A stretch of 64,000 bases of DNA from Pseudomonas sp. R37(2017) (lineage in GTDB: Bacteria; Pseudomonadota; Gammaproteobacteria; Pseudomonadales; Pseudomonadaceae), in NCBI RefSeq assembly GCF_002113375.1, contig NZ_NEHO01000004.1, positions 364,926 to 428,925 of the forward strand, in the 5' to 3' direction. A program made the translations under genes and the position numbers. The notes under the pieces were generated by a model, which was given only the letters and a program-made list of their open reading frames with translations, was not told the origin of the DNA and searched no databases. This document shows, in pieces, positions 31,076 through 39,200 of this stretch (within the stretch, counting starts at the first letter, position 1; every line of letters begins with the position of its first letter).

Positions 31076-31165
31076 GGAGAGATGCCAGAGTGGCCGAATG
31101 GGACGGATTCGAAATCCGTTGTACCTTCACCGGTACCTAGGGTTCGAATCCCTATCTCTCCGCCA
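31076..31165 (+). tRNA. tRNA-Ser (anticodon CGA), island insertion site
   Basis: The 90-nt class II tRNA has acceptor stem GGAGAGA/TCTCTCC, encoded GCCA, a long variable arm (TACCTTCACCGGTA) and anticodon loop ATTCGAAA, giving CGA. Its last 17 nt plus three following bases are duplicated at 39181-39200, the distal end of the integrated island. The tRNA is intact after integration. Confidence 0.96.
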
Positions 31166-31168
31166 TTA
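31149..31168 (+). repeat. attL: left attachment repeat of the island
   Basis: The 20-mer TCCCTATCTCTCCGCCATTA covers the tRNA-Ser 3' end plus three bases and is repeated exactly at 39181-39200. Such a tRNA 3' end duplication marks the core of tyrosine-integrase site-specific insertion. Confidence 0.93.
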
Positions 31169-31537: not shown

Positions 31538-32158
31538 TTAGGCTAGCTCTCGCTTGATCCGATAAACAGTTGCAACACCACACTCAGCCAGCTTGGCGAT
31601 CTTGTCAGCAGACATGGTTGGATGTTCCTGCATCAGCGACTTCACCTGCTCATGCAATGCTACATTCTTCCCTTTACCTGATGGCTTCCACTCAGGCTCA
31701 GCAGCACGCTTGTTAGCAAGTCCTTGGTTGATACGTTCAACACGTTTGTCTTGATCGAGGCGAGCCATAGTTTGCATCAGTTCGATCAGCATATCGTTGA
31801 TCACATCCATGATCTGACCAGTGATACCTTTGTCTTTCACCATCATGTGACTGGTTGGAAGGTCAGCAATCACCAGCTTCAAACCTTTAGCCTTGATCGT
31901 TGCCTTGAGCGTTTCCCAATCGGTCTGAGACAGACGCGACAACCTGTCTACGGATTCGCACAAGAGAATTTCCCCCGGTTGTGCAGTGTCCAGCAGTCTC
32001 ATCAATTCAGGTCGGTTGAGTTTCGTACCACTGATGTTCTCGGCGTACACGTCAACGATGTTCAAACCTTTATCACCAGCGAATGCTTCCAGTGCGATAC
32101 GGGCACGGTTTGCATCTTGATCCTTGGTTGATGCTCTCAGGTACAGATGTGCGTTCAT
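31538..32158 (-). CDS. Serine recombinase (resolvase/invertase family)
   Basis: The 206-aa protein has the catalytic N-terminal domain: YLRAST with nucleophile Ser10, then GTKLNRPELMRLLDTAQPGEILLCESVDRLSR with the conserved Arg residues. A long E helix follows, and a C-terminal helix-turn-helix (about 175-206, TMSADKIAKLAECGVATVYRIKR). Size and layout are those of small Tn3-resolvase/Hin invertases, not of large phage integrases. AAAGGA lies upstream of the ATG. The promoter region is dense in GATAG/CTATC motifs. Inferred role: resolving multimers or inverting a segment of the island; no target is proved. Confidence 0.9.
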   Translation of the reverse strand: MNAHLYLRASTKDQDANRARIALEAFAGDKGLNIVDVYAENISGTKLNRPELMRLLDTAQPGEILLCESVDRLSRLSQTDWETLKATIKAKGLKLVIADLPTSHMMVKDKGITGQIMDVINDMLIELMQTMARLDQDKRVERINQGLANKRAAEPEWKPSGKGKNVALHEQVKSLMQEHPTMSADKIAKLAECGVATVYRIKRELA

Positions 32159-32695: not shown

Positions 32696-33094
32696 TCAGG
32701 GTTTTCCGCAAGGGAAGGCGGAAGCCATCGCCAGAGCTATCGAAGTGACCTCATGCTGGTGAAGTTTCTCCGGGTTCTCTTTCAGGTACTTCACCACAAT
32801 CCGTAACTGTTGCTCCTTCGTCACAGACTCAGGCGGACAGATGAATGGAGGGAGCGTCTTTCCCGAAGAGGCACTGTAGTAACCACGAGCCATTTCGATT
32901 CCATCGAGAGTACCTTCGATCTTACCTAGACATACTCCGCCGCCAAATGCGCTCTTACCAGCACCGCCATCTACGACATTCAGTGCGTCCTGACACTGCT
33001 GAAGAAGGACATTGCCGTTTGCCAATACAAAGCCAGTCCAGCCACTGGCCAGCAACGTTAGCGTGCACATCATCTTGGATTTCAAAAGGGGCAT
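32696..33094 (-). CDS. Rap1a/Tai-family immunity-like secreted protein
   Basis: The 132-aa protein has a signal peptide (about 1-25, ending FVLA). Its mature part carries the spacing of the Rap1a/Tai family: LLQQCQDAL, a central GVCLGKIEGTLDG, then FICPPESVTKEQQLRIVVKYLKENPEKLHQ and the terminal ASAFPC. Four cysteines probably form two disulfides. In Serratia, Rap1a/Rap2a are periplasmic immunity proteins against T6SS amidase effectors. No effector lies beside it. The start is uncertain: ATGs at 33136, 33094 and 33073 all lack an ideal ribosome site; 33094 gives the best signal peptide. Confidence 0.7.
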   Translation of the reverse strand: MPLLKSKMMCTLTLLASGWTGFVLANGNVLLQQCQDALNVVDGGAGKSAFGGGVCLGKIEGTLDGIEMARGYYSASSGKTLPPFICPPESVTKEQQLRIVVKYLKENPEKLHQHEVTSIALAMASAFPCGKP

Positions 33095-33338
33095 TCCTTT
33101 GGGTTCGCGAGGATGGCAATGTACCAGCACGTACATAGATCAGCGAGGGTATCGCCCATGGCTCACGAGGCTTCCGCCTCAAGACGGTACAACCAACCCG
33201 GTGGCATCGAACAAGTCGAATGGAAGATAAGGGCATGAGCCGGGCTTGCAAGTAGGTTTACCTGCTGAGCATGACTGAAGTTAACAACCTAAAGATGGTT
33301 TCGCCTTTGAAGAGCCATCAAAATCAAGGAGGGATGTA
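33095..33338. other. Divergent gap between the Rap1a-like gene and the 33339 gene
   Basis: This 244-bp region must drive both genes. Strong AAGGAGG for the rightward gene is at its end. No repeat or clear promoter was recognised. Confidence 0.35.
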
Positions 33339-34169: not shown

Positions 34170-34427
34170 TTTTTGGCGGTGATCGTAGGGCGAATATGTC
34201 ATATCGGTTGAAGGCTAGGTTTTATTCCCGGTTTTCAATCGATTGGCACTACTACGTACAATATCGAGAAAGAAAGTGAATCATGCTTAGCCTGAATTGC
34301 TCAGGCACCAATGAAAATGCGGGTTGTAACAACCGTTACCACAATGCAGCGTCACACCGTTGACCAGGATCATCCTGCTGACTCACCTGCTTTCAGTCCT
34401 GCACCAAGGTTGTGGTGGTGGCGATCA
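34170..34427. other. Gene-free stretch with weak hairpin
   Basis: These 258 bases hold GCCTGA/TCAGGC (34290-34306), a 6-bp hairpin without a T tract. The sequence toward 34427 looks like the GC-richer remnant of coding DNA following the early stop of the 153-aa gene, but no frame could be joined with confidence. Confidence 0.35.
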
Positions 34428-34889
34428 TCACACCGGCACCAACATCGCTTTGTTCAACAACGACCAACGTCTGATTCTGATGTCACCAAAGACTTTCGTA
34501 AGGTCATGTGGTCTTTGGTTTTCGATTGCACTGGCAATTGTGTATGGTTTCAGTCCTTCAAGCCTCTTGCTTTTGACGTTCATGTCTGCTGTGAATGACT
34601 CATCAACAATTTGTTTCAAGCCGCCTGACTGGGCTGTGGTCAGGATCATTAGGTACGCTTGCAATCCCTTGTCACCTTTACCATTCCCATTCTTGGTCTG
34701 GATACGAACCAAGAAGGGTTGACCGGGGTATCGCTTACGCAAGGATTGCAGAAATGGTTCCTTGTCAGTCAACAGTTGGTTGCTCAGCTTAAGGTCGTCA
34801 TAGAACACTGAGTACTGATGTGACCAGTGGTGTCCTGTCAGCAATGCTAGGTATCGTCTCTTGGTCTTGTCTTCACTCGTTTCACTCAT
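34428..34889 (-). CDS. Hypothetical protein (153 aa), possibly truncated replication-type protein
   Basis: Basic and aromatic-rich, it begins MSETSEDKTKRRYLALLTGH and continues HWSHQYSVFYDDLKL, then RYPGQPFLVRIQTKNGNGKGDKG. GGGGA precedes the ATG. No HUH, primase or AAA motif was seen. The position, downstream of a repeat-bearing gene-poor region, and the abrupt end followed by non-coding DNA make a shortened replication or DNA-processing protein conceivable, but not shown. Low-to-moderate GC like the other island genes. Confidence 0.6.
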   Translation of the reverse strand: MSETSEDKTKRRYLALLTGHHWSHQYSVFYDDLKLSNQLLTDKEPFLQSLRKRYPGQPFLVRIQTKNGNGKGDKGLQAYLMILTTAQSGGLKQIVDESFTADMNVKSKRLEGLKPYTIASAIENQRPHDLTKVFGDIRIRRWSLLNKAMLVPV

Positions 34890-35314
34890 TCTCTTTCCCC
34901 TAATCTTTAAAGTTAATCTCTTGAATACATACTCTCAAACACAGCACTAGAACTCTCAATCTCTCACTTTCCTAGATACTTCAATACGTCACGCTGATTG
35001 CGATGCCGGCAATCCCCCGTAAACATTGGGCCAAACCGACGTTTTAAGGCAAAACGTACAGAATTACTAGTGCGGCGATTTTCGCATTACTAGTGCGGTG
35101 ATTTCAACCCTGATTCTGGTTCATTTTCAACCCCGTTTTGTGGTGATGAACCCACCATGATCGCGATGAACATTCACACCACATGCACACCTTTCTACAA
35201 GGCAGCATAAAGCCCCGTGCAGACGTTGATTGTCTGCCGGAGCCATAGCGGTATTACTTTTCATTGCAAAGCGCTCAGAAGCGATTGTGGGAGTTTGCAG
35301 AAGGTGTTACAGGA
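34890..35314. other. 425-bp gene-poor central region of the island, candidate origin or control region
   Basis: It contains CT-rich sequence (34915-34980), an inverted repeat (35039-35057) and two iteron-like direct repeats (35063-35104). The 13-mer shared with the island left margin is at 35132-35144. No open frame with a ribosome site was found. Confidence 0.45.
35039..35104 (+). repeat. Inverted repeat plus two 19-bp iteron-like direct repeats
   Basis: ACGTTTT-AAGGC-AAAACGT forms a 7-bp inverted repeat (35039-35057). ATTACTAGTGCGGCGATTT (35063-35081) recurs as ATTACTAGTGCGGTGATTT (35086-35104), one mismatch, 23-bp period. Repeats spaced by about two helical turns are seen in iteron origins and in tandem operators. 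Confidence 0.65.
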
Positions 35315-35791
35315 TCAGTCTGGAATGATCAACGGGGCAAATGTATCAGCAACTTCCTTTTCAATCTCACGCAATAGTTTTGCTCTTTTCTCCTCTTCTC
35401 GACGCTGTTCTTTCAACTCAGCGGCTTGGATCAGTTGTTGAGTGAGTTTTGCTTTATATTCTTCACGCTCTGCTTCAAGTTCTTTTATGTACTGTGCCTT
35501 CACGTCCACATCGATAACGTCAAGATCTAATTTTTGCAATTCTGGCGGTTTGATCATTGATGCCGAGTAATCAAGCGGCAGTGTTATGATTGGTGACCAC
35601 TTGCTGAGTTCATAACCAAGTTTCGACTTCTCAATAATGGCGGTTATAAATTCGTAAGGGAAGTCAGTTTGTACAACCTCCAAACACTGTGCAGATTGCC
35701 TGTACTTGGCGTGGGCATGTTCCTGAAGTTGTTTAAGTTCAGCTTCATCATACTGGCGAGGTGCACCAGATATCTTAATTCTATCAGTCAT
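35315..35791 (-). CDS. Hypothetical coiled-coil protein (158 aa)
   Basis: It begins MTDRIKISGAPRQYDEAELK; the C-terminal third (about 100-145) is strongly charged and predicted coiled coil (KELEAEREEYKAKLTQQL). No TM or signal. A good site, AAAGGAAAATAAA, precedes the ATG, and the stop of the upstream gene is 1 bp away, so translation is coupled. Unknown function; part of the island's minus-strand gene set. Confidence 0.65.
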   Translation of the reverse strand: MTDRIKISGAPRQYDEAELKQLQEHAHAKYRQSAQCLEVVQTDFPYEFITAIIEKSKLGYELSKWSPIITLPLDYSASMIKPPELQKLDLDVIDVDVKAQYIKELEAEREEYKAKLTQQLIQAAELKEQRREEEKRAKLLREIEKEVADTFAPLIIPD

Positions 35792-35792
35792 T

Positions 35793-36041
35793 TTATTTTC
35801 CTTTCTTTTGTCGAATGCGATTTACCATCAACTCTACGATGGTCATGCGGTATTGTTCATCGGTTAACTTGATGTTGGTGATGGTTGTTACTTTACCGGT
35901 GTTGATTGTATTAGCACTCGTGATTACATCAACATCAGTCTTTGTATGCTGCTTTGGAAGTTGTTCTTTACTACGTCTTGCGAATGCTTTGGTAAAGCCA
36001 GCAGTGAAGTAGTCCAGTTTCGTTTTGGTATCATCACTCAT
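35793..36041 (-). CDS. Hypothetical protein (82 aa)
   Basis: Starting MSDDTKTKLDYFTAGFTKAF, it is basic in the middle (ARRSKEQLPKQH) and at the C-terminus (NRIRQKKGK). The ATG at 36041 overlaps the end of the preceding 62-aa gene by 8 bp. The longer frame upstream (to 36116) is translated by the overlapping gene in another frame and is unlikely. Unknown function. Confidence 0.6.
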   Translation of the reverse strand: MSDDTKTKLDYFTAGFTKAFARRSKEQLPKQHTKTDVDVITSANTINTGKVTTITNIKLTDEQYRMTIVELMVNRIRQKKGK

Positions 36042-36222
36042 AGCAATCACTCTTTGCTTCACGTAAAGCTTGAATGCCATATTCATTAACCAGACGTTCA
36101 AGCTGTTGTGAGGCACGGTTTACTTCATTTTCATCACCAGCAGCCATTGCTGATTGTTGTAACGATAAATAATGTTTCATTTGAAGCACAGCAAGGTGCC
36201 GTTCAAGCAGCGGGGTATTCAT
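36034..36222 (-). CDS. Hypothetical protein (62 aa)
   Basis: A short helical protein, MNTPLLERHLAVLQMKHYLS..., with AAAGGA 11 bp upstream of the ATG. It overlaps the 82-aa gene by 8 bp in operon fashion. No recognised domain. A gap of 165 bp separates it from the 137-aa gene upstream, so a promoter may lie there. Confidence 0.55.
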   Translation of the reverse strand: MNTPLLERHLAVLQMKHYLSLQQSAMAAGDENEVNRASQQLERLVNEYGIQALREAKSDCYE

Positions 36223-36387
36223 GTATTATTATTCCTTTGGTTTGTTGTATTGATATACACCTGAGATACGGCTGAAATAGCGTTTTCAACCCATATAAAT
36301 CAAGGTGTGTAGACGTGCAAAAGTGGCAACCTAGGGGGTAGCCCAGGGTGACAGGTATTTGAGGCTATAAACGCGTTACAGAAGCTC

Positions 36388-36801
36388 TCAGCGGTACTTA
36401 TCTAAGTAAGCTTCAGCAACCATTGTGCCGGTGAGAAATACATCTGATAGGTGGTGGTGATTAGCATCTGGATTGGAAGCGATCCAATGTTTAATACTTG
36501 ACTCACGATCAACCGACGTTGGCGTCTGTTCATTACGAATGCGAGTGTTGACCAACTTAGCTTTACTATGTCTGTTGCCACTGATTTGTTCGCTGAAGCT
36601 TGGACAACTATCCATAAGCTCACCAACGCTAACCAACACACCTCTGGTCAATGCCTTTTTGTGAAGTTTGTAGAAGTGGTTGAGAACAATGATTGAAGCT
36701 TCATGAAAGCTATGGTCATCATCCGGTTTTGGTGGTAATGAACTGGTTATCACTTTCAGAATGAGTTGTGATGGCTTATGTACGACTATGAAGTTACTCA
36801 T
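36388..36801 (-). CDS. Hypothetical protein (137 aa)
   Basis: It begins MSNFIVVHKPSQLILKVITS; a soluble alpha/beta protein without recognisable motif. AAGGAAAACCA gives a good ribosome site. It lies 63 bp downstream of the 51-aa gene, on the same strand. AT-rich codons. Unknown function. Confidence 0.6.
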   Translation of the reverse strand: MSNFIVVHKPSQLILKVITSSLPPKPDDDHSFHEASIIVLNHFYKLHKKALTRGVLVSVGELMDSCPSFSEQISGNRHSKAKLVNTRIRNEQTPTSVDRESSIKHWIASNPDANHHHLSDVFLTGTMVAEAYLDKYR

Positions 36802-36864
36802 TGGTTTTCCTTATCGATAGGTGATCCTCTGACTTGTGGTTAAAGTATTTAGGATTGAGTGGTG

Positions 36865-37020
36865 TTAGACGTTTGATTTCTTCTGTTTATCACGGCGTCG
36901 AAGGTTGTTCGTGACGCTGGTTAGCATTACGTTAATGCAATGGGTGTGACTGGTGTACCCAGTACGCACCATTAACTCTTCTAGTTTCATCACAGCCTCT
37001 TGATTGAGGAATATCTTCAT
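36865..37020 (-). CDS. Small ribbon-helix-helix-like protein (51 aa)
   Basis: The frame from the ATG at 37020 reads MKIFLNQEAVMKLEELMVRT, then GYTSHTHCINVMLTSVTNNLRRRDKQKKSNV. The layout (short beta strand, helix, turn, helix and basic tail) resembles ribbon-helix-helix regulators. Its ATG overlaps the stop of the zinc-finger-like gene as ATGA, so it is translationally coupled. At 51 residues it is below usual cut-offs. DNA binding is inferred, from shape and charge only. Confidence 0.6.
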   Translation of the reverse strand: MKIFLNQEAVMKLEELMVRTGYTSHTHCINVMLTSVTNNLRRRDKQKKSNV

Positions 37021-37259
37021 AGTGAACGCTCACTTTGGACAGCACGATCATGTACGTATTGATTAACTGATTTTCCAGTAGCATCAGCAGCTTTGGTAAT
37101 CAGTGCATGGTTAGCAATGCTGAACATAATCCGCTCTGGAATCATCGTGATCTTTGATTGTCGCCATACCGCGTTCCTGCATTTGCTTGAGCATGTTGCG
37201 GCATGTGATCTACGGTTGATCAGTGGTGTGGAACATCCACGGCAGAGCTTAATAGTCAT
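37017..37259 (-). CDS. Small zinc-finger-like protein (80 aa), possible regulator
   Basis: It has MTIKLCRGCSTPLINRRSHA with CxxC, then ATCSSKCRNAVWRQ with CxxxC, a likely four-Cys zinc site in the first 30 residues. The C-terminal half (ALITKAADATGKSVNQYVHDRA) looks like a ribbon-helix-helix or helical DNA-binding segment. GAGG upstream of the ATG. First gene of the leftward small-gene set, downstream of a terminator that isolates it from the integrase. Confidence 0.6.
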   Translation of the reverse strand: MTIKLCRGCSTPLINRRSHAATCSSKCRNAVWRQSKITMIPERIMFSIANHALITKAADATGKSVNQYVHDRAVQSERSL

Positions 37260-37315
37260 AGGTATCTACCTCGTTAGTTGATAGTGTTTGTAAAATGTCC
37301 GGCATAGACAAAAAG

Positions 37316-37344
37316 AAAGCCATACCGGTGAGGGTTATGGCTTT
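37316..37344 (-). terminator. Terminator downstream of the integrase
   Basis: AAAGCCATA/TATGGCTTT, a 9-bp perfect stem; on the minus strand it is followed by CTTTTTG. It ends the integrase transcript 200 bp past its stop and before the small-gene set starts. Confidence 0.75.
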
Positions 37345-37544
37345 GGGGAATTAGCTGTGGAGGAACAACTTCACATACTGACACTTGAAGGAAGGGCAAG
37401 CTGTCAGCTTGGAGATACCGGTCAAGTGAATGGCTATACACTGAGAACGGAGTGTAGCTGTTCAACTCCACTATGAGAGCATTATATCACGAATGATTCT
37501 CATTGTCAATATCCGCCTCAACTAATGTTGACACTTAGATTAAA
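37345..37544. other. Gap between integrase stop and terminator
   Basis: Contains an AT-rich stretch with the small palindrome AATGA-TTC-TCATT (37492-37504). No gene supported. Confidence 0.35.
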
Positions 37545-39065
37545 CTATTTTTGAAAATCAAAGTGTAGGAGTTGTATAGCTTCCTGCTTCTGTTCAAATG
37601 AGCATCCGCCACTGTAGACGCTCAACGTGAACGATTTGTTCTCGTGTCCTACGATGTACGGCAGCACCTCCAAACCTACACCTGCTCGGTGAAGTTCGGT
37701 CGTGGTGGTTTTTCGGATGCTGTGGAATACGTGAAGTTTTGAGAACTCAGCTTTAGTTTTCAATCGCCCAAACTGTTTACCCAGCCTGTCAAGTCGGATG
37801 CCGTATTTGTTGTTGCCACCTTTGAATAAGTATCCATCATTCGCTGGTGCTTGCGAACACAGACTTTTGTATAGAGGAACAAGAGATGCGTGCAACGGGA
37901 TATCTCGTACACCGGCAACCGACTTGGCTTTAGGGATGTGGAAACCTATTGGTTCGTTATGCTGGTCAAATATTGTGTCAACCGGTTCAATTCGCCCGAT
38001 TTCCTCAATCCTAGCGCCCGTGTATGCACCAAAGATGATGAGATTGGCTAAATCGTCTTTACCGCCTTCTCGGGCTGTCTTGTACAGGTCTTCAATCTCT
38101 TTACGGGTGAAGGGAAGATATGATTCACCGGCTTCTTTACCAACTTTTGGTAGATCGTGACCATCGAACGGGCACTGCTGCCCGGTGAATTCATCACGGA
38201 ACTGAGCGTTGTATTTTATAGCCCATTTCCAGAAATCTCGTCCCGACCACAAGTAGTTCAAAAGGGTCTGGCGGGCACCACCTTGTTTTTTCACAAAGTT
38301 GTGGATGGTGTCGAAGGTGAGCGGGGCACCTTCAGTTGTCAGGAACTTGGATATCTTTTCAACGCGAGCTTTATGACTATCACGGGTTTTCTCTGATTCG
38401 ATTTGTGTGACAAGGTACTTTACCCATGCTTCAATCATGGATGGGCTGATTGGTGAGCGTGGTTTGTACAATGTCGGATTACGTACAATCGCTTGAGCTT
38501 CCTGATGCTCTTCGTCAGACAGGTTGTATTCATATGCAGCAACGACGGCTTCAGCATCTCCTTGGATCGACAGAAGATTGTGATGTAGGACTACGGCGTC
38601 ACCAGCTGTCATACCTTTTTCGCAGGCATCATTGAATTTCTTTACATGGTCGGTTACACGAGCAGCTAATGCATGCTCTCCCATTTCTTCCATGGCTTTC
38701 GCCATTTCCAATAGTTTTCCAATGAATAAGCCGTCAGGGCGATCAGGAACAACATCTAGATTTATCGGGGTGAGTAGCAGAGATACGCCATCGTTTTGCT
38801 TCTGCTTCAATTGTTTTCCAAGCTCATGCTGGGCAAGTCGCCATTCGTCTCCCTTATTACCTTTTGCCGTTCTCGCCGCTTCAATGTCAGCTTTCCATTG
38901 TGAAAGGATCGGCAGACGGCGGAGCATTGCCTCCGATCTCATGCCGGTTTTGAGTGACTGGATCAACACGGTTCGATTGCCAAGCGCCCGGCGGACATCC
39001 TTCGGTACATCAAGCCGGACATACCACGTTGATTCGTTTTTCTTTTGGAAAATATGATCAGCCAT
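37545..39065 (-). CDS. Tyrosine recombinase (integrase) of the island
   Basis: The 506-aa phage-type integrase has an N-terminal DUF6538-like start (ADHIFQKKNESTWYVRLDVP, binding arm sites), a core-binding domain (about 205-310) and a catalytic domain with Arg in AYTGARIEEIG, the HSIRKT box (His, Arg), GHEN and the nucleophile Tyr in SVYSGG near the C-terminus. It is the enzyme expected to insert the element at tRNA-Ser. The ATG at 39065 is chosen over a TTG 12 bp upstream; neither has a strong ribosome site. The start region abuts the right arm repeats, suggesting autoregulation. Confidence 0.93.
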   Translation of the reverse strand: MADHIFQKKNESTWYVRLDVPKDVRRALGNRTVLIQSLKTGMRSEAMLRRLPILSQWKADIEAARTAKGNKGDEWRLAQHELGKQLKQKQNDGVSLLLTPINLDVVPDRPDGLFIGKLLEMAKAMEEMGEHALAARVTDHVKKFNDACEKGMTAGDAVVLHHNLLSIQGDAEAVVAAYEYNLSDEEHQEAQAIVRNPTLYKPRSPISPSMIEAWVKYLVTQIESEKTRDSHKARVEKISKFLTTEGAPLTFDTIHNFVKKQGGARQTLLNYLWSGRDFWKWAIKYNAQFRDEFTGQQCPFDGHDLPKVGKEAGESYLPFTRKEIEDLYKTAREGGKDDLANLIIFGAYTGARIEEIGRIEPVDTIFDQHNEPIGFHIPKAKSVAGVRDIPLHASLVPLYKSLCSQAPANDGYLFKGGNNKYGIRLDRLGKQFGRLKTKAEFSKLHVFHSIRKTTTTELHRAGVGLEVLPYIVGHENKSFTLSVYSGGCSFEQKQEAIQLLHFDFQK

Positions 39066-39083
39066 ACATAGCACCAAGGCGTG

Positions 39084-39180: not shown

Positions 39181-39200
39181 TCCCTATCTCTCCGCCATTA
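39181..39200 (+). repeat. attR: right attachment repeat of the island
   Basis: Exact copy of the 20-mer at 31149-31168 (tRNA-Ser 3' end). Beyond it begins sequence that includes the original tRNA terminator. Confidence 0.93.

Follow-up and report, generated by a model that had tools for sequence, protein, structure and literature searches.

A conserved island-specific box upstream of a putative DNA-binding protein gene: a candidate promoter-operator in a Pseudomonas genomic island

What is the role of two near-identical direct repeats found in the gene-free centre of a small genomic island? The repeats lie within a window (the whole stretch of Pseudomonas DNA that was analysed, 64 kb). They had been described in an earlier note as iteron-like, adjacent to an inverted repeat and upstream of a gene encoding a basic 153-aa protein; together with a resolvase, they were proposed to be a replication module of the excised island. 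The explanation favoured here, with a probability of roughly 0.55, is that both are copies of one island-specific box, arranged in tandem and forming the promoter-operator of the 153-aa gene.

The island and its central gap

The element is a genomic island of 8.05 kb, integrated in the tRNA-Ser(CGA) gene of a Pseudomonas genome. It encodes a tyrosine integrase (Phage_integrase in Pfam, E 7.5e-13) and is flanked by direct repeats at the end of the tRNA gene and at the opposite end (Table 1). Its GC content is 0.462, vs 0.600 for the remaining window. Seven of the 10 island ORFs that were scanned, including the one encoding the 153-aa protein, gave no Pfam match that passes the curated cut-off.

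Several other features of the island were observed (loci are listed in the next section). The cargo includes a gene encoding a Rap1a-domain protein (32696-33136; E 2.5e-15); L027 and G367 also encode relatives of it. The stretch from the box to the integrase gene (35315-37471) includes genes for proteins of 158, 107, 62, 137 and 80 aa; relatives of these are found in L024, and a partial set in L023, L025, L029 and G256. The sequence TTCTACTACT has four copies in the whole window (31228, 31241, 39098, 39111), i.e. two pairs with a 13-bp spacing, immediately inside attL and attR; these pairs are possibly arm-type binding sites for the integrase. Defence genes in the island were rejected: a PADLOC search of 8 proteins of the window and 2 of relatives gave weak matches only (best E 0.0013, to the recombinase).

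Table 1. Features of the island, sorted by position in the window. The promoter is a candidate; the fold is predicted.
Feature	Position	Strand	Basis or remark
attL	31149-31168	none	20-bp direct repeat, 3' end of tRNA-Ser(CGA)
Small serine recombinase, 206 aa, resolvase/invertase type	31538-32158	minus	domain match
Basic 153-aa protein, predicted ferredoxin-like fold, no HUH motif	34428-34889	minus	pI 9.8
Leader motif TCTAGGA	34970-34976	minus	TATAGGA in many Pseudomonas relatives
Leader block CCCAATGTTTACGGGG	35014-35031	minus	conserved: identical in L023, close in L024
Inverted repeat, 7 bp, 5-nt loop, ACGTTTT-aaggc-AAAACGT	35039-35057	none	chance-level
Box copy 2, core GCCGCACTAGTAATT	35063-35081	minus	23 bp closer to the 153-aa gene
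Candidate sigma-70-like promoter TTGAAA-18-GAAAAT, TG before -10	35078-35107	minus	consensus match
Box copy 1, core ACCGCACTAGTAATG	35086-35104	minus	core between candidate -35 and -10
Tyrosine integrase with DUF6538 domain	37545-39077	minus	Pfam
attR	39181-39200	none	20-bp repeat identical to attL, opposite island end

Positions 34890-35314 (425 bp) are exactly the gap between the 153-aa gene and the next gene (35315-35791); only one other listed ORF of at least 60 aa enters it (74 aa, GTG start, plus strand, 35217-35441). The direct repeats, ATTACTAGTGCGG(C/T)GATTT, are 19 nt each, 95% identical and 23 nt apart from start to start; on the minus strand, i.e. that of the gene, the repeat reads ACCGCACTAGTAATG. 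At up to 3 mismatches, just these two matches are found in the 64 kb (expected 0.00), and the 6.03-Mb genome has no further copy of the 13-base core ATTACTAGTGCGG beyond these two. A comparable pair was obtained in 0/200 dinucleotide shuffles of the gap. The repeats described earlier, with their single mismatch and 23-bp period, are thus real, and the gene of the basic protein does lie downstream of them. The inverted repeat is present too, but at chance level: at least one equally good was found in 53/300 shuffles of the gap. It is absent from the relatives L023 and L024 (sequences judged by eye) and was rejected as an origin hairpin on account of the shuffles.

The box and its gene in other loci

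Matches to the 153-aa protein were found in 10/398 Pseudomonas genomes (own genome and one fragment counted), in 3/390 genomes at the order level and in 2/369 at the class level (own genome included in both). A first single-protein search of the contigs of named genomes gave no relative; a profile search of the named genomes gave 12 loci, including some in Alteromonas, Salinimonas and Stutzerimonas (L023 is the P. viridiflava locus). The plasmid, phage and viral-contig collections gave no relatives of the protein family, and no match to the 17-base box pattern.

The 19 loci compared are the window, L023-L034, G032, G367, G029, G543, G687 and G835 (the last three being also L035, L036 and L037). 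Duplicate identifiers were counted once (L023 = G026, L025 = G072, L027 = G071, L028 = G060, L031 = G087). G256, in which the match spans residues 89-152 only, was left out; this relative island (L011) shows only that part of the 153-aa gene, yet has an open gene for a 208-aa small recombinase.

A box with the core CCGCA is found 157-211 bp upstream of the start codon of the gene in 17/19 loci, which include Alteromonas (protein 23% identical), Salinimonas and one class-level relative. Its full form, CCGCA(C/T)(A/T)A(C/G)TA, occurs in 12 of the 17. Variant boxes are CCGCACTAAAA (G029), CCGCATACTTA (L032 and L033), CCGCACACTTT (L034) and CCGCAGTAATA (G835); these spellings were spotted by eye and afterwards included in the pattern. 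G543 (CCGTCTAAGT at -160) and G687 (CCGTTAAAGT at -129) show a weak likeness and are excluded from the 17. There are two copies in 3/19 loci, one in 14/19 and a weak likeness only in 2/19; these counts are not independent, because the loci are related. The tandem double box is limited to the window, L023 and L024. Iterons are not supported, as 16/19 loci have a single box or the weak likeness only, and an iteron array was rejected: double boxes are confined to these three loci, and several iterons were not found.

The exact 15-mer ACCGCACTASTAATG was found in 5/398 Pseudomonas genomes, at one site per genome and in every case upstream of the 153-aa gene (placed by comparison with the homologue matches); as a control, the reversed pattern matches 10 of the 398. 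The 5 other gene carriers among these genomes, which lack the exact 15-mer, have an altered box or a gene fragment only. In a scan of 10 island regions at up to 3 mismatches (7 trimmed to about the island, 3 entire stretches of 18-20 kb), the box was found at the gene alone in 7/10; there was one weak extra match (3 mismatches) in L028 and two in G032, and the diverged box of L031 was missed. As far as these sequences go, the box is a conserved, island-specific DNA element linked to the 153-aa gene family, at a fairly constant upstream distance.

The 153-aa gene recurs as a unit with genes for an integrase and a small recombinase, whose types vary. In 15/19 loci an integrase gene is found upstream in the same orientation as the 153-aa gene (Pfam or BLAST clustering); it is placed elsewhere in G032, L029 and G835, and none was identified in L026. 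A small serine recombinase is encoded within the retrieved stretch in 15/19 loci, or 14/19 after removal of L026, where the recombinase adjoins an inserted transposon with TniA-like, TniB and TniQ genes. G029 encodes a 184-aa tyrosine recombinase in its place; in L033 and L034 the contig ends shortly past the gene, and the 4.6-kb contig of G835 has no recombinase. Island ends were mapped for the window and G835; elsewhere, the recombinase is presumed to lie within the island. The integrases are tyrosine or large serine recombinases, and the integration sites include tRNA-Ser (window, L024, L028, L030), tmRNA (G543) and others. Box and gene remain constant while integrase and recombinase are swapped, which argues for a role in the element's own control or replication, not in integration. 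They are probably the element's own control unit.

Two of the loci have further features. In L026 (11459-16031), the 72-aa gene of the island has a resolvase gene and the TniA-like, TniB and TniQ genes as neighbours, at the position where other islands hold their recombinase; Tni-type transposons seek res sites. L040 (G835:C94, 4613 bp) is from a class-level relative. Of its two copies of a 20-base att core, one begins 10 bp in from a contig end and the other stops 6 bp short of the opposite end; the rest of that genome has no further copy. This hints that, in the culture that was sequenced, the element was excised, in tandem or multi-copy.

Predicted fold and motifs of the 153-aa protein

The window protein has no relative in Pfam, NCBIfam or PHROG, and none among PDB sequences at E <= 1. 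Its AlphaFold2 model (pLDDT 87.5, pTM 0.82) has the predicted order helix, strand, helix, strand, strand, helix, strand, helix, with a beta-alpha-beta-beta-alpha-beta core. In a second model (pLDDT 80.4), for which the distant relative L034 served as lead sequence, helices and strands follow in much the same order.

Among viral models, Foldseek gave 14 matches to the window model at E <= 0.001: 4 named replication proteins, 1 parvoviral nonstructural protein, 1 uncharacterised protein and 8 nameless ones. The second model had 0 matches at this threshold; among its best 50 viral matches listed, those named by function are Rep proteins. Viral proteins with a ferredoxin-like fold of this type are mostly Rep, so that these matches are a lean and no proof. 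In the PDB (window model only), Foldseek gave no match at E <= 0.001, and SIRV1 ORF119 ranked second (E 2.1e-3). In VIA lists, where missing folds carry no meaning, the best match of the window model is a bacterial ribosome chain (Z 7.2, 3.2 A, 100 residues) and that of the second model is SIRV1 ORF119 (Z 6.4, 3.3 A, 102 residues). Ribosomal protein S6 itself (1ris) has a Z of 6.1 with the window model; SIRV1 ORF119 and RepB rank among generic matches.

HUH initiators (pMV158 RepB, microvirus and G2P-type Rep, and SIRV1 ORF119, which we take to be an HUH Rep entered in the PDB as a hypothetical protein) have the beta-alpha-beta-beta-alpha-beta core that is predicted here. Unlike them, the 153-aa protein has neither an HUH (or HUQ) motif nor a conserved tyrosine, and its Z values are in the generic ferredoxin-like range. 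The third core strand (residues 76-84) reads LQAYLMILT. In a 12-sequence alignment, the HUH position is QA[YWF] in 9/12 and HAY in L031, and is without His in L032 and L034; no Tyr is invariant or near-invariant. Invariant residues after M1 are E3, K8, R11, L50, P127, R141 and N146. Membership of YagK_YfjJ_C, taken here to be the Gp2-like family, was rejected (hhalign probability 0.1% vs 6 family members).

A comparison with Rep folds had been suggested in the earlier note. Its outcome is divided: the predicted ferredoxin-like shape and the 4/14 named viral replication matches agree with such a fold, the HUH and Tyr residues are missing and the PDB matches are generic. On the models, the protein is likeliest a putative DNA-binding domain that resembles Rep in shape and has no nickase chemistry.

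Operator, origin and other readings

Promoters were scored over 520 bp with a simple sigma-70 model (approximate matrices, not fitted to these data). In 10/19 loci, the box lies inside the highest-scoring promoter of the gene strand; random placement of the box gave a mean of 0.94 loci and a maximum of 6 (20,000 draws), and the top promoter of the opposite strand encloses it in 3/19. The 9/19 loci whose best promoter does not enclose the box include all 7 non-Pseudomonas loci; either other promoters are used there, or the promoter reading is not general. In the window, a separate scan of 34420-35400 gave TTGAAA-18-GAAAAT as the sole promoter-like site, which by itself is no better than shuffles (1 found vs mean 1.3).

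We read the box as the operator of an island-encoded putative DNA-binding protein gene rather than as part of an iteron array. As the 10/19 loci suggest, it would lie between the -35 and the -10 of the gene's promoter, so that a bound protein would control transcription. The basic 153-aa protein, with a predicted fold also used by Rep DNA-binding domains, would bind the box and so keep its own production in check. The second copy lies about two helical turns off, overlaps the -10 end and the expected (inferred) transcription start, and may tighten this control. The 153-aa gene would further be a control or initiation gene of the excised island, which the integrase would move and whose multimers the small recombinase would break. 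An operator-promoter explains the exclusivity, the position and the tandem copy of the box, and needs only binding of the protein to its own box. It does not account for the conserved leader blocks.

A tentative alternative is that the gap is the replication origin of the excised island, with the 153-aa protein as initiator, the box as its binding site and an A+T-rich leader as melting region. Autoregulation at the initiator binding site is normal for such replication systems, so that this alternative overlaps the operator, and both can be true together. The viral fold matches, with 4/14 named replication proteins and the parvoviral one, fit an initiator; the second model, which has none at E <= 0.001, and the missing HUH motif and conserved Tyr do not. 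Retention of gene and box across the swaps of integrase type is also expected of an origin, as is the small recombinase (serine type in 14/19 loci, small tyrosine type in one more), because a replicating circle would want a resolvase-type enzyme. The GC content of the last 60 bp of the leader is low in some loci (0.33 in the window, L023 and L024; 0.23-0.40 in the six loci L032-L037), but is 0.35-0.53 in the other ten Pseudomonas/Stutzerimonas loci, most of which are not A+T-rich. The rarity of the double box (3/19) counts against an origin, as does the lack of relatives of the window protein in Pfam, NCBIfam, PHROG and PDB sequences, and in the plasmid, phage and viral-contig collections. A DnaA box (consensus TTATCCACA) is absent at up to 1 mismatch within 300 bp in 17/19 loci, the window included; L033 and G029 have a single 1-mismatch match each, and the window gap has none at up to 2 mismatches.

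What remains of the replication module with resolvase proposed earlier is a conserved gene-linked repeat, a fold leaning to replication initiators and a co-travelling small recombinase; iterons, a nearby DnaA box and Rep catalytic residues are lacking, and the box lies at the gene's best promoter in 10/19 loci. A replication role for the 153-aa gene and the repeats is possible, and unproven. A wider proposal, somewhat more speculative than the origin, is that these islands are undescribed minimal integrative elements, found across Gammaproteobacteria, that combine varied integrases with a fixed unit. This unit would consist of a control/start site with one or two boxes, a small resolvase and a protein of Rep fold that lacks nickase residues. 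After excision, this protein would initiate replication of the circle at the promoter region of its own gene, using neither HUH chemistry nor DnaA boxes.

In SGI1, an island of the integrated type, a dedicated rep gene is combined with an iteron origin, according to the excerpted text of PMC7433901. The window island resembles SGI1 in being integrated and in having a dedicated rep gene (here putative) and short direct repeats. In the same excerpts, the iterons of SGI1 number four, are 17 bp long and lie downstream of rep; a putative DnaA box is also described, and control is by AcaCD (PMC7433901). The window differs in having two boxes upstream of the gene, and a DnaA box was not found there. 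By analogy with AcaCD and SGI1, the box could be the site of a regulator of the host or of a helper element that switches the island on. Its position inside the candidate promoter would suit this. The idea is unlikely, as the exact box is found only at the 153-aa gene in 398 genomes (exact matches only), and box and protein appear to diverge in parallel.

The leader, of 150-200 nt and partly conserved, separates the candidate promoter from the start codon and could for this reason be a structured regulatory RNA. Changes on both sides of predicted RNA pairs were found in 5/21 pairs (3-sequence set) and 3/15 (7-sequence set). The window leader, however, folds no better than shuffles (z +0.71; 151/200 at least as good), the 7-sequence set scores unfavourably in its covariation term (+1.28), and the sole Rfam match (E 2.2, 14.6 bits vs a gathering score of 37) is located at and beyond the 3' end of the 153-aa gene. 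An RNA leader is thus very improbable and was rejected, on the z value and the weak covariation. Apart from folding, 34890-34976 (minus strand) is a purine-rich leader with GAGAGT/AGATTA-like repeats conserved in L023 and L024, and L004 (the L025 locus) has a perfect 15-bp tandem repeat immediately upstream of the gene.

Least probable is a role of the box in recombination, as an att core or as the res site of the small recombinase: an integrase and a small recombinase are encoded on the same island, but the att repeats are about 4 kb off on each side and the box is constant while the types of both enzymes change.

Other small islands were compared. The PICMI satellite model requires int, alpA and prim, in the excerpted text of PMC10803314; the likeness is that of a compact integrated island with an integrase (6,110 bp for PICMI115 vs 8.05 kb here), and no AlpA or primase family was found at E <= 1 among the 10 island proteins of the window. 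I55-type Pseudomonas islands also have a tyrosine integrase and direct repeats (at tmRNA in I55), and no recognised transfer genes; they differ in having intY and alpA, and many have inovirus Gp2-like genes (PMC12595487, in excerpt), whereas the 153-aa family has no profile match to YagK_YfjJ_C (hhalign probability 0.1%). For GInts, the title of PMC5385486 names four essential genes. In the open-access literature (titles, abstract openings, best matches), no report of the 153-aa gene or of the box was found.

Small islands without transfer genes are common, and their persistence after excision is mostly obscure. The pair formed by the box and the 153-aa gene, constant across changing integrase, cargo and insertion site, is a marker for finding such islands, and the box is a short target for binding and copy-number tests.
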